DNA from: Erodium maritimum
Lineage: Eukaryota; Streptophyta; Magnoliopsida; Geraniales; Geraniaceae
Reading direction: 5' to 3'
Assembly (NCBI GenBank): GCA_963921825.1
Contig: OY997593.1
Location: forward strand, 63,844,039 to 63,908,038
Length of the DNA stretch: 64,000 nt
A program made the translations under genes and the position numbers. Each line of letters begins with the position of its first letter. Position 1 is the first letter of the stretch. The notes under the pieces are model-generated. The model ran no database searches and had not been told where the DNA came from. It was given only the letters and a program-made list of their open reading frames with translations. Shown in pieces: positions 12,140 through 24,282 of this stretch.

Positions 12140-12151
12140 TTAAAATTGTAT

Positions 12152-13421
12152 TAACCTAGGTAGCCGCCCTTCTTCTCTCTGCAGATTAGGGTTTGGTTTT
12201 TTTCTGAGCAACCATGGCGGCTCAGATCTCTAGTCTTTCCGGTGATCCCTTGCTGCGGTGTGATGAACCAGAGGAGGTCGACGGGGAGGAATCCGGCGGT
12301 GAGGTCGGTGTGGGCGTCGAGGACGCGAGGGGGACGGCGGGGTTGGGTTTCGCCGGTCTGCCCGAGGACGACGCACAGGGTGTCGGGATGGGGGTCGGTC
12401 TGGGTGATGAACCTGGGTTGATCCCGGTGGCGCTAGAAGATGGGGCGGCGGGGACGGAGGTGTCTGACACGGTGGCGGAGCCGCTGACGCCGCAGGAAGG
12501 CTCGACATCTCCGCGCCCCCGAGTTGCGAGAGGAGCGGGGTCGGGACCGGCTCGGGACATCGCGAATGAGACTCGGGCGACGTCGAGATCGGTGCCAGTT
12601 GCGGCAGTAGTTGTGCTGGTGGTGGAGGTGTCCTCCGATAGTGGAGCACTGCTGCATGCGGACATGGCGGCGAGACGGGTGCTGATCCGGGTCTCGTCGG
12701 ACTCGGATGACACGCAGCCGGAGCCTCCGGCAGCACAGGGGCAACGACGGCTAAAGGGGAAGGCGGTTGCCGAGGTAGGGGACAACCCTAGCGAGGTGGA
12801 GCCGGACCCGGAGCAGCGGGCTGGGCCGGGCCGGTGCAAGGGGAGGGCGGTGGCCGGGGTGCGGGACAACCCTAGCGTGGCGGGGTTGGGCCTGGGGAAG
12901 CAGTCTGGGTCGGGCCCGGAGGAAGCATCACACGCAGCAGCGGCGGGGGGCTACAAGCGCCCCCGCCTGCAGGAATGAGTCTGTGGTGGCCCGGGGAGGG
13001 GTGGGTTGACTTTGATCCTTTCCCGGCGGATGGATGGCGTTGGCACCATCATCAGTTGACAATTGTCTCCCCTGCCAGTCTGGAGTCAGCACACCCGCGT
13101 TCAGGAGCCCTACCATTATCAGTCCAGGGAGGACGACGCACGCTGACACACCAGGGGAGATGTAGGTCCACCAGTATTCCCCTAAACTTGGTTGGCTCGC
13201 CTCGTCCCATTTGGAAGAAGCATGCTGTATCGGTGTCACCAGACGCTACCGCGGATATCCCCTTCGTCCGCAACCAATTACCAGAGCCGAATTTATTGTT
13301 TTTAGTTTCATTTCTGATTATTAGCTGGATTTTCTTATGTAGGTGGAGTACGTTTGTGTACCCACCAAACTATCTTATTATGTTTTAATACTATTGCAAT
13401 GGTTATTCTAAAAAAAAAAGT
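12152..13421 (+). mobile_element. Complete non-autonomous retroposon, copy A (unnamed family)
   Basis: It is flanked by a perfect 12-bp target duplication, TTAAAATTGTAT, at 12140-12151 and 13422-13433. It ends in an A-run (AAAAAAAAAAGT) directly before the right duplication. Both are hallmarks of target-primed insertion of a non-LTR retroposon. The 1,270-bp body consists of a short leader ending CTCTCTGCAG-A-TTAGGG, a GC-rich ORF (12214-12978), a tail of about 300 nt shared with copy B, and an imperfect hairpin (GGTGGAGTAC/GTGTACCCACC, about 13341-13365) before the A-tail. No endonuclease or reverse transcriptase is encoded, so it must have used enzymes from elsewhere. Confidence 0.8.
12214..12978 (+). 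CDS. ORF of retroposon copy A, 254 aa, unknown
   Basis: An uninterrupted frame opens with ATGGCGGCTCAG shortly after the leader. The protein is low-complexity: Gly/Glu/Asp-rich in the first third, then Ser/Pro/Arg-rich. It contains two diverged copies of a motif, RRLKGKAVAEVGDNPS and RCKGRAVAGVRDNPS, so an internal duplication is likely. It ends GGYKRPRLQE. The same type of ending, GGGKHPRRQE, closes the ORF of copy B. I see no domain. It could be the C-terminal half of a LINE ORF1, because plant L1 ORF1 proteins end in low-complexity tails. Whether it is translated is unknown. Confidence 0.45.
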   Translation: MAAQISSLSGDPLLRCDEPEEVDGEESGGEVGVGVEDARGTAGLGFAGLPEDDAQGVGMGVGLGDEPGLIPVALEDGAAGTEVSDTVAEPLTPQEGSTSPRPRVARGAGSGPARDIANETRATSRSVPVAAVVVLVVEVSSDSGALLHADMAARRVLIRVSSDSDDTQPEPPAAQGQRRLKGKAVAEVGDNPSEVEPDPEQRAGPGRCKGRAVAGVRDNPSVAGLGLGKQSGSGPEEASHAAAAGGYKRPRLQE

Positions 13422-13433
13422 TTAAAATTGTAT

Positions 13434-15763: not shown

Positions 15764-16084
15764 GGGAAAACTCCAGGAAACAACTATGTTTTGACTTTCT
15801 AGTACAATATTTAACGACTGACTTTGCTATCGTTCAAAGTACATGGTTTGGCAACAAATTTTTCAAAAATTATAATTTTCTGTCCAAAAAGACGGAATAT
15901 TCTGTTTTTGGACATAATATTCCTTGTTTTGAATAGAATATTCCGAAATATTCTGTCTTTTTGGACAGGAAATTATAGTTTTTGAAAATTTTGTTTCCAA
16001 ACTATGTACTTTGAACGATAACAAAGTCAATCGTTATATCTTGTAATATAAAATCAGAACATAGTTGTTTCTTGGAGTTTTTCC
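15764..16084. mobile_element. Foldback MITE, Mutator-like (9-bp target duplication)
   Basis: This is a 321-bp element with long terminal inverted repeats: the left end GGGAAAACTCCAGGAAACAA pairs with the reverse complement of the right end, GGAAAAACTCCAAGAAACAA. Almost the entire element folds on itself. It is flanked by ATGAATAAA at 15755-15763 and 16085-16093, a 9-bp duplication as made by Mutator-like transposases. It is non-coding and lies just after the BAHD stop codon. Confidence 0.85.
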
Positions 16085-20327: not shown

Positions 20328-21345
20328 ATGAGTGACTCTACTCCAACCACTACTGGCAAACCACGTCGAGGACGTCTGATACGGCCTAAAGGCGTTGCTT
20401 CATCCGCAAGAAACATGTCGTTGGGTCTCGCTCCACCGCCTTTGCCAATCGTCTCTGCTCCATCTCCTTCCTGGGTTCCTACTACTCGGGTTGATCCGCC
20501 CACTCCTCTTCAACAGGACCCGACGCGGGGGAAGACCCCGATGGAGGATCTCCCACATACGGCGGTGGAGGAATTGAGCTTGGGTCGTTGTCTTCCCAAT
20601 AAGGATAGGATCCCCCTCATCCCCTCTCTCGTTACCGTTCCTGCCGGTATGGTCCTTGGTCGGAAGGTGGCCCTCTCGTTGAATCAGCCCCCTTCGCCCA
20701 CCATTGTGGCTTTACCAAAGTTGCAGGCATCCATGGAGACATTCCAAGATGGGCTCTCCTCCTGCTCCCTCGACGATGACGACGAAGTTGAGGTCGTGGT
20801 TCCTTACTCTCCGGGCAATGCCACGGTCAATTCCCGTCAGTAGTGGGGACTGATGGGCAAGCTATGAACGTCAAAGCCTCCCCAGAAGGACATTCTATTC
20901 CGTATCATCACCATCGCGTGGGGGCAGGCTGTAGAATGCTTGGTCGTCAAAGATCTTGGAACGGGAGTCTTCGACTTCTATTTCCGGACAGTAGAGTCAC
21001 GATCTTGGGTCCATAGTAATGAGCCTTGGTGTTTCAATGGGTGCCTCATTTTGCTTAGAGAGTTGAACCCCTATGCCCAGGAACTTTCCGCATTGGACCG
21101 CTTGCAACTATGGGTCCACGCTCGGGGTCAGTCGCCCCTGTTTCAGATGAAGACAACGGGGGATACGATGGGGACGAATTTGGGGTGTGTGTGGAGGTAC
21201 CCTGCGATCAAGGGAGTATGTGCTGGGGTGGAACGGTGAGGGTGCGTTTTGGCACCTTGTTGAACGTTCTCTAGAGCGGGGAGTGGTATTGAGGTTCAAG
21301 GACTTCCCGATTCCCGTGAAGGTCGACCTCACCTATACGAAATAG
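20328..21345 (+). mobile_element. LINE (L1 clade) ORF1 relic with DUF4283-like domain
   Basis: An ORF1-type N-terminus begins MSDSTPTTTGKPRRGR at 20328 and is Pro/Ser-rich; this frame ends at 20843. In another frame, from about 20900, the DUF4283 signature of plant L1 ORF1 proteins follows. It shows GVFDFYFRTVESRSWV, EPWCFNGCLILLREL, LDRLQLWVHARG and, at the end, GVVLRFKDFPIPVKVDL. The zinc knuckle that should come next is missing: the sequence breaks off at about 21345 into AT-rich DNA. The element has at least one frameshift and several stops and is not functional. Confidence 0.82.
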
Positions 21346-21758: not shown

Positions 21759-23188
21759 TGTAGTATTGTTAGATTTCTTTCATGCATTAGACTAATGTTC
21801 TCTCTGCAGCTAGGGCTTGGAGAGCCGCCGCCAGGGAGATTGGGTGATCACTATCCCCAATCTCCATGACCTGTGCATGGCTATGGCATGTGGGGTTTAT
21901 GGAGAGGAATCATACAACGGTGCTTCGGTACAGATACACAGGAGATGAGGTCAGTTCTACCAAACTCTGCTTTGATTTTGGAAGAACAAACATGTTTAGA
22001 CTCTACGTAGAGGCAAGGGCGTCTCAAGTGGGGAATGGATGTGTTTGATTACGACGCAAACCTTACTTCTCTCTTTGAGAGGCGGTTGGGGTTTTGCGAA
22101 TCGTGGACGACGGCGGTGCAGAGACTTTCGGCGAGCTCCGGTCACACACAATACAGGAGGACAGTGAATGACAACGGTTCTTGGCCGGTGCCGTCTCTGT
22201 CCCCTGAGCGGGTCTTTCCTCGATCAAGCTCGCCGATGGCGACGCCAGAGGGAGGCCATTCGGGGGTGCTGCGGGGGTCGAGAGGACGACCACAGGGGCA
22301 TCTGGTGAAGCTTCGGGTCTGCCCAGAGCTGTGGCCGACGGAGAAGAAATCTTTGTTGTCTCGTGAATTTTCGGGGAGGACGGTGGCGCGAGGTGTAGTG
22401 TTGGTCTTGTCGGGGGACGTTTCAGCGCCGGACTCATCAGACAGTGCCCCAGTTACAGAGGGGCTAATAGAGGCGGTGGCGTGGCGGCGAAACAAAGGGA
22501 CGACGATGGCGCACGGACCCGCTAGGGTTTCAAACGCGGCACTGGGCCAGGATCGCGAGGACGTGGGCCTGGGTCGGGGCCTGTGCGCGGACGCTCGCCG
22601 GGCCTGGCAGGCTAACTCGACATGGGCTCCGCGTGCTAGGTTTGGTGATCATCGAAAGGTGGAACCTGAGGAAGAAACAGGATCGTCAAATTCGGAGGGA
22701 GCATCGAATGTAGTGGTGGGGGGCGGTAAGCACCCCCGCCGCCAGGAATGAGAGCCTGGAGACCCCAGAAGGGTTTGGTCGACTGTATCCCCTTCCTAGC
22801 AGTTTGGTGGCAGTGGTTCTGCCAACAGTCGATGAGATACTCCCCTACCACTTCAGGGTCAGCATTCCCGCGTTCAGGAGCCCTACATTTATCACTCAAG
22901 GGAAGACGACACACGTTGACATACCGGGGGAGCTATCGGTCCACCACTGTTCAACGTTCACCATATATGCTCGATCAGTATTTATGATTGGAGCATACTG
23001 TATCGGTATCCATGGATGCTACCGCAGTCAACCCCCCGACCGCCTCTATGCATATGAGCACAATTTATTTCGCAGCACTTCTGTTTATTTCTATTCGAGC
23101 TACTGCTTTGTAAGGTGTTCGTCGGCAGACGAACACCTAGGTACCTTTATTTCTCAATAATATTTCCGGTTCCTCACATCATTTTTTT
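21759..23188 (+). mobile_element. Complete non-autonomous retroposon, copy B (same family as 12152-13421)
   Basis: It is flanked by an 11-bp duplication, TTACTTACAAC, at 21748-21758 and 23189-23199. The body repeats the plan of copy A: a leader with CTCTCTGCAGCTAGGG (about 21800), a GC-rich ORF ending at 22751, a tail clearly homologous to A (for example GCGTTCAGGAGCCCTAC in both), and a perfect hairpin AGGTGTTCGTC-GGCA-GACGAACACCT at 23119-23144 where A has its imperfect one. The 3' end is T-rich rather than A-rich. By eye the copies are roughly two-thirds identical in the tail, so the family is not young. Confidence 0.75.
22035..22751 (+). CDS. ORF of retroposon copy B, 238 aa, unknown
   Basis: The frame is open from ATGGATGTGTTTGAT to TGA at 22751. 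The protein is low-complexity and shows little similarity to the copy-A ORF except at the C-terminus, where both end in an acidic/Ser stretch, EGAS or EEAS, then GG-K-PR-QE. In both copies the stop codon overlaps an ATG (GAATGAG), after which the homologous tail starts. The body may be frame-scrambled relative to A. Translation is not established. Confidence 0.35.
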   Translation: MDVFDYDANLTSLFERRLGFCESWTTAVQRLSASSGHTQYRRTVNDNGSWPVPSLSPERVFPRSSSPMATPEGGHSGVLRGSRGRPQGHLVKLRVCPELWPTEKKSLLSREFSGRTVARGVVLVLSGDVSAPDSSDSAPVTEGLIEAVAWRRNKGTTMAHGPARVSNAALGQDREDVGLGRGLCADARRAWQANSTWAPRARFGDHRKVEPEEETGSSNSEGASNVVVGGGKHPRRQE

Positions 23189-23199
23189 TTACTTACAAC

Positions 23200-23640: not shown

Positions 23641-23992
23641 TCAGGTTTTTGATTAACCTAGTTTTCTAGGTTTCACTTCAATATTATTGAGTAAATCTTT
23701 GTTTTAGTAAGTTCGTGTATTTTAATTGAGTTTTGTATCTGGTTTTCTGACATCCGTAGTTTTTGATGAACTGAGTTTTCTAGGTGTTAATTTAGTATAA
23801 GGTTTCAAATTTTAAGTTCCAGTATTTGTGAAATCTTGTTACCGTGTTTTTATGAAAATGAATAAATCTGTGTTTTAATAAGTTTGTGTACTTTAATTGA
23901 GTCTGATCACTGGTTCTGAGTTTTTTGAAATCTGTAGTTTTTGATGAGTTGAATTTTCTAGGTCTTAGTTCAATATAAAGTTTCAAATTTTA
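23640..23992 (+). repeat. Degenerate tandem repeat, period about 172 bp, about 2 copies
   Basis: Two blocks of about 115 bp, at about 23700-23816 and 23872-23992, share AATTGAGT, CGTAGTTTTTGATGA / TGTAGTTTTTGATGA, TTTTCTAGGT and GGTTTCAAATTTTAA / AGTTTCAAATTTTAA. A third partial unit with TTTTTGATTAACCTAGTTTT lies just before (23645-23695). Confidence 0.7.
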
Positions 23993-24282
23993 ATTGTTGA
24001 CGCGAATTACAACTAAATTGTTTCCGTTTAGTTGTGTGATTCACTTCAACAATTAGTTACTCTACAACTTTTACAGTACTGAAAACATTTTTTAAAGGAA
24101 AAATAATGATTGTGTATTCATTAAATCACATCGTTCAATCAGAAATAGCACAACTCATGCTTCTTCATTGCACTTCTAAATATAAAAAAAGTAACAAAAC
24201 AATCTTCAAACAAAAGAATGGAAATCCATCTTAATCGTTGAAATCAAAATTGATTTCGGAATCCCGATAATTTTTTTTTTAC

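Follow-up and report, generated by a model that had tools for sequence, protein, structure and literature searches.

HAL1, in the sections of its description cited here, is a LINE derivative that encodes ORF1p only, is non-autonomous and arose several times in mammals (PMC5753468). Sadhu elements are presented in the cited part of their report as non-protein-coding retroposons of about 900 bp, non-autonomous and LINE-dependent, with a 5' motif (CAATCGTTSC) and a pyrimidine patch past it, a poly(A) tail, target-site duplications (TSDs) of 7-16 bp and no pol III boxes (PMC2848041). A complete plant L1-type LINE is exemplified by Celine of poplar, which in the cited part of its report carries DUF4283 in ORF1, a poly(A) tail and TSDs of 10-30 bp, DUF4283 being conserved among plant LINEs (PMC11288735).

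Against this background, the family studied here, represented by copies A and B in the window (the whole stretch of 64,000 nucleotides that was analysed), resembles HAL1 in being an ORF1-only, non-autonomous LINE derivative. It differs in its plant host, in an ORF1 of the DUF4283 plus zinc-knuckle type, in a 3' module that none of the LINEs read possesses, and in derivatives (copy A included) that lack the ORF1 core and yet keep its ends in frame; we know of no core-less, frame-keeping forms of HAL1. Mammalian L1 ORF1 is of another type, and the family is not HAL1 proper, which descends from mammalian L1: its ORF1 has a homologue in a LINE of the same genome. With Celine it shares a DUF4283 ORF1, poly(A) and TSDs, whereas the ORF2 of Celine, with endonuclease and reverse transcriptase (RT), has no counterpart in the loci of the family that we followed.

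The original prediction had named Sadhu-type elements as the nearest concept. The likeness is real (non-autonomous, poly(A), TSD, no pol III boxes, a 5' motif then a pyrimidine patch), but Sadhu is non-coding, has a different 5' motif and, in the part of the report cited, no ORF1 ancestry is mentioned (PMC2848041). The motif CAATCGTTSC was absent from our element even with two mismatches allowed, and the Sadhu trait of having no conserved ORF does not hold here, where the parental ORF1 core is under selection and the tail frame is kept in derivatives, the ORF of copy A alone being unselected. The nearest relatives are instead ORF1-only LINE derivatives of the same genome. Our reading, with a probability of roughly 0.8, is that copy A arose by internal deletion from a LINE lineage that has ORF1 only, a half-LINE of plants comparable to HAL1 of mammals. 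No HAL1-like or ORF1-only LINE family of plants appeared among the titles and abstracts listed in searches of the open-licence literature, and Repbase may already list the family. As a half-LINE the element is of a known kind; what stands out is that its core-less derivatives keep the frame and that its ORF1 core is strongly selected without an enzyme of its own.

Boundaries and copy number of the unit

Copy A at 12152-13421 is confirmed as a complete insertion of a multicopy retroposon family. The perfect 12-bp duplication and the A-tail said to bound it were both read directly, the duplication also being found by script (Table 1). Across the family, we accepted TSDs of 9-18 bp from script proposals (cut-off at least 9 bp) at 31 of 59 loci, and an exact match of at least 12 bp between the 3' flank and the 5' region was present in 23/31 own pairs vs. 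2/930 cross-locus pairs used as control. TSD and A-tail are hallmarks of target-primed reverse transcription, and that proposed mode of insertion stands. One correction concerns the 5' end of the "full-length" unit, since its first 8 bases are not family sequence.

Such fillers are common: 0-75 nt of other sequence separate the TSD from the 5' end of the family at the 28 loci measured (26 non-zero), the boundary having been set by a simple pattern, with the result that some lengths take in a little family sequence. When compared with their own local flanks, 17 of the 18 fillers tested show nothing beyond background, and local templating was rejected as their source, a long own-flank match occurring in L015 only. 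Variable transcription starts in the donor flank (5' transduction) would explain them.

The multicopy status that had been proposed is borne out by an 18-mer of the 3' module (CCGCGTTCAGGAGCCCTA), which occurs at 1,906 exact places in the 763-Mb host genome, the reversed control occurring at none. Used whole as a query, copy A gave 53 matches from the 40 scored of 2,866 first-look candidates; its first 501 bp gave 116 first-look candidates, and its 3' 438 bp gave 2,361, the 40 scored being 92-100% identical. Genome counts other than those of exact patterns are counts of first-look candidates, and the loci read are the best-scoring ones only. Copy A was found neither as a single copy nor as part of a LINE. 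For annotation, the ORFs of a family of this size could pass for unknown plant genes.

The claim that copy A is not a SINE also survives. Rfam gave no match to it up to E = 1, a tRNA search found none, and neither a pol III promoter nor the tRNA, 5S or 7SL ancestry of a SINE was found in it. The A- and B-box patterns used for the pol III check match copy A 18 and 4 times, respectively, at up to 2 mismatches, which in GC-rich sequence is too frequent to be meaningful.

Table 1. Features of copy A and position of copy B (coordinates of the window).
Feature	Position	Strand	Basis
Left target-site duplication TTAAAATTGTAT	12140..12151	+	reading, script, cross-locus control
8-nt 5' filler of copy A, non-family sequence	12152..12159	+	L002 and L003 matches begin at query base 9
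5' leader: GTAGCCGCC plus pyrimidine patch, the 5' end that this part of the family has in common	12160..12213	+	
Section homologous to 5' leader and ORF1 N-terminus of ORF1-only parents, 70-83% identity	12160..12640	+	
254-codon ORF, read as a LINE ORF1 with an internal deletion, its N-terminal and linker part fused to C-terminal tail ...KRPRLQE*	12214..12978	+	
Section common to second sub-lineage L004-L008 (whose 5' end differs), 90-93% identity	12649..12927	+	
Two 84-bp direct repeats in linker of copy A, 73% identical	12739..12906	+	
3' module common to the family, read as non-coding; includes the counted 18-mer	12979..13409	+	
3' stem-loop GGUGG(A)GUAC / GUACCCACC; position kept, stem sequence different in L038 and copy B	13342..13366	+	
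A10 tail of copy A	13410..13419	+	read directly
Right target-site duplication TTAAAATTGTAT	13422..13433	+	reading, script
Copy B, from a different sub-lineage whose 5' part is distinct	21759..23188	+	similarity search

ORF1-only parents and core-deleted derivatives

The 254-codon ORF exists as predicted, and Pfam assigns zero families to it up to E = 1, but it is no novel gene: it corresponds to a LINE ORF1 whose DUF4283/zinc-knuckle core is deleted. When we searched with the 5' part of copy A, 21 of the 30 loci taken ran on into an ORF absent from copy A, which matches DUF4283 (3.2e-14) and zf-CCHC_4 (4e-05, under its cut-off) in Pfam. Judged by this domain content, a DUF4283 domain and a zinc knuckle of the zf-CCHC_4 type, the parental frame is a plant LINE ORF1. 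Downstream DNA was followed for 14 of these 21 loci, and in all 14 the 3' module begins ~200-240 bp past the core end, with an A-run of at least 7 at the expected end in nine; in L017 and L024 the start of the module is visible inside the locus itself. ORF1 is hence followed by the 3' module without ORF2 at 16/16 loci reached via the 5' end (a count that leaves out L029, L030 and L037, plus L021 and L022, which form a tandem duplication with L020) and at 3/3 reached via an ORF1 motif, as expected from the claim that the element is non-autonomous, with no LINE ORF2 between ORF and tail. This order implies an RT-less parent type made up of ORF1, 3' module and tail. It recurs in L044, L047, L049, L056, L057, L062 and L064, which, having been retrieved by the 3' module, offer no independent check. 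The part of C1 below 28.78 Mb contains 11 ORF1-motif places, and at 9 of them the exact 18-mer follows downstream on the same strand at a start-to-start distance of 399-439 bp; some of these places coincide with loci that were read, and of the remaining two, L034 was seen on reading to have a variant 3' module.

Measured between their duplications, five parent copies span 2,430-2,514 bp, and one more reaches 2,614 bp. The family thus appears to descend from an RT-less half-LINE of about 2.4-2.6 kb, consisting of a LINE ORF1 and a ~490-bp 3' module with no ORF2. Of the features that define a half-LINE, a LINE-type ORF1 is present in the parents, copy A retaining the ORF1 ends only, and the absence of ORF2, with a 3' end directly past ORF1, was seen at the loci followed. 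Three parent copies with identical scores, L020-L022, lie ~30.14 kb apart (G000:C5:71685832-71746489) in a tandem segmental duplication.

Compared with the parents, copy A is missing 98 bp of the linker near 12512 as well as a stretch of about 1.36 kb with the ORF1 core, and the section that replaces this stretch is 90-93% like sub-lineage L004-L008, which makes copy A a mosaic. By alignment, its predicted nucleic-acid-binding core has been deleted and ORF1 N-terminal sequence rejoined in frame to the C-terminal tail. Other derivatives lost the core at different breakpoints. Among the junctions inspected, some overlap by 2-12 bases and others show no overlap or 1-17 nt of filler. Splicing was rejected as the source of the internal deletions, a GT...AG pair being absent at all of these junctions, whose features fit template switching or microhomology better.

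Sorting the junctions by the residues at the break gave ten types, for each of which the frame of the nearest ORF1-derived segment was compared with that of the tail. All ten types (10/10) are in frame with the ORF1 C-terminal tail (p = 1.7e-5 if independent; the types share breakpoint zones, and the independent events may be fewer than ten). By locus, 23/27 are in frame, and the exceptions (L004, L005, L007 and L067) are all of the type of copy A, which is in frame at 7/11 loci; we attribute their out-of-frame state to later indels. By eye, L052, L058 and copy B are likewise in frame (L051 and L053 could not be judged). A VVEVSSDTE-type stretch, followed by AWRRxKGKG and a KHPRLQE end, recurs across sub-lineages in the linkers of derivative ORFs (L027, L045, L068); the stretch resembles a SUMO-interacting motif.

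Across the RT-less copies, purifying selection on the ORF1 core is strong. In tblastn segments of at least 150 aa from 20 loci, with stop codons dropped, median dN/dS was 0.13 (147/190 pairs computable, none at or above 1), compared with 1.53 and 2.10 in the other two frames of the same rows, and differences by codon position (5,176 / 3,597 / 14,759) are dominated by third positions. Inside the two main groups, medians were 0.085 (15/15 pairs) and 0.176 (91/91); between these groups only 41/84 pairs were computable, with dS ~2.6 (saturated) and dN 0.11, all 43 pairs without a value being of this kind. Core identity and 3'-module identity are correlated (Spearman 0.77; 20 loci, 190 non-independent pairs), which suggests that ORF1 and the 3' module diverged together. 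Taken with the core dN/dS, this indicates that ORF1 was constrained while carried by elements lacking RT, provided that the true lineage is not a LINE that shares the 3' module and escaped notice.

The derivatives present a different picture. Over 3 copies, the ORF of copy A has a dN/dS of 0.66, its other frames giving 0.71 and 0.97, and shows no constraint of its own, and 23 derivative ORF ends show weak constraint (0.73 vs. 0.96 and 1.05). The frame and dN/dS results together suggest that it is translation as far as the tail that counts, more than the precise protein made. A 137-codon frame overlapping the ORF stop (ATGA, 12975-13388) was considered as a second gene and rejected: it is open in many copies, yet its dN/dS is 1.01 (42 loci). 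Values in the other frames of this region are 0.52 and 0.93; the frame with 0.52 has 206 stops in 5,677 codons and is therefore not a gene either. We treat the 3' module as non-coding.

The retention of ORF1 by non-autonomous LINE derivatives is puzzling, as the enzyme can be borrowed and a trans-acting protein should decay. A dN/dS of ~0.13 without RT, together with ten frame-keeping junction types, offers a natural experiment, in plants, on cis-preference and on what a LINE needs of its template RNA.

3' ends, LINEs and the origin of the family

A stem-loop lies ~37-45 nt upstream of the A-tail, with the stem GAUGGGUACA/UGUACUCGUC in parents, GAUGCCU/AGGCAUC in L038 and GGUGUUCGUC/GACGAACACC in copy B. 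Because a bulge in copy A shifts the register, we used a cross-lineage arm test instead of counting pairs on a MAFFT alignment. Own arms pair at 9/9, 10/10, 7/7 and 10/10 positions, arms swapped with copy B or L038 at 4-6 of 7-10 (best 6/7), and the stems of copy A and the parents are interchangeable (8-10 of 9-10 paired), so that two to three stems at most are independent. Folding relative to shuffles gave z-scores of -3.8 for copy B, -2.5 for a parent and -1.7 for L038, and the stem-loop of copy A itself folds no better than shuffles (z = -1.1).

LINEs are abundant in the host genome, and some look young (12,901 first-look zf-RVT candidates in 763 Mb, a few of the 150 scored lying in open frames of >1,300 aa). 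We read 20 of them, chosen non-randomly for long frames among the best 150 (two, L091 and L099, without a clear 3' end), and the 3' module was present in 0/20 of their 3' regions. By our own count, TCTC precedes the A-run in 14/20 of these regions, mostly in one LINE type, and these are not 14 independent observations; among family tails, 39/50 finish with TTCT or a near variant, to which a final C may or may not be added. This TCTC-A(n) likeness is a hint, not proof, of a recognition end common to LINEs and family. One LINE ORF1 of the same genome, L104, has the same two domains and is 33% identical to the L044 core, half-LINE cores being 74-100% identical to the latter. For the commonest LINE type, the copy fetched (L083/L103) has no ORF1 in the 2.3 kb upstream of its long frame.

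We propose the following origin. In the loci read, the parent is a LINE ORF1 (DUF4283 plus CCHC knuckle) joined directly to the 3' module with its stem-loop near the end, and its core is under the purifying selection described above. A full LINE of the same genome would supply endonuclease and RT in trans, its enzyme recognising the ...TTCTC-A(n) end together with the 3' stem-loop and inserting new copies by target-primed reverse transcription, to which TSDs and A-tails attest; most likely the family spread with a copying enzyme taken from other LINEs. Deletions with differing breakpoints removed the ORF1 core and produced 1.0-1.45-kb derivatives like copy A. Given that the frame is retained at all ten junction types, the RNA may have to be translated through to the ORF1 tail ...KHPRLQE* for good mobilisation, or else out-of-frame RNA may be lost, e.g., by nonsense-mediated decay. 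It is tempting, if rather doubtful, to go further and regard translation in cis as the ticket to mobility, such that RT-less relatives persist only if ribosomes reach the ORF1 tail beside the 3' module, where the tail, or terminating there, would recruit the LINE enzyme; this would account for the frame being preserved even in miniature derivatives without the RNA-binding core.

Alternatively, the ORF1-only forms could be recurrent internal deletions of a still-living LINE with the same ORF1 and 3' end, the constraint on ORF1 being then the LINE's own. The abundance of LINE candidates (150 of the 12,901 scored) and the presence in the genome of a LINE ORF1 of the same domain type are both compatible with this. 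However, ORF2 is absent from 19/19 followed ORF1-bearing loci not picked by their 3' end, none of the 20 LINE 3' regions holds the 3' module, the only ORF1 of this type read in a LINE is far more distant from the L044 core than half-LINE cores are, and ORF1 and 3' module co-diverge, all of which makes such a living source unlikely.

A-tails, TSDs, 5'-complete copies and a conserved ORF would also mark the retrocopies of a transcribed gene, and the family might on these grounds consist of processed pseudogenes that stem from a family of host genes for a DUF4283 protein; an 18-mer of the 3' end at 1,906 places, stem-loops that differ among sub-lineages and derivative families that amplified on their own (e.g., that of copy B) render this quite improbable. 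Least credible is a non-coding retroposon of the Sadhu type or resembling a SINE. The size class, poly(A), TSD, lack of pol III features and a 5' motif followed by a pyrimidine patch are indeed similar in the cited part of the Sadhu report (PMC2848041), but the origin from a LINE ORF1 is traceable, derivatives keep the ORF in frame and the Sadhu 5' motif is absent at up to 2 mismatches. A half-LINE with deleted derivatives remains our preferred reading of the family.

Copy B and other features of the window

A related full-length copy had been reported 8 kb away. Copy B is real, but it begins 9.6 kb from the start of copy A, has no A-tail, and resembles copy A at 71-72% identity over 241-263 bp only, at the end of the ORF and in a portion of the 3' module. 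It terminates in CCTCACATCATTTTTTTT before an 11-bp duplication read by eye around the element (window 23170-23199), and its ORF (22035-22748) ends in ...KHPRRQE. Nine matches, itself included, span nearly the whole element at 88-100% identity. Elsewhere in the genome, a 3' module of the copy-B type occurs three times with a spacing of exactly 1,996 bp (G000:C5:57938261-57942769), a tandem array that includes the retroposon end.

Three further features were observed in the window. A fragment at 20919-21080 is 37% identical to the DUF4283 core (E 5e-6) and is probably a relic of another LINE ORF1. An inverted repeat at 15764-16084, with two 138-nt arms that are 88% complementary and 45 nt apart, is possibly a MITE-like or hairpin element. 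Beside copy B, at 23645-23993, are AT-rich direct repeats, degenerate and spaced 114 to 178 bp apart.
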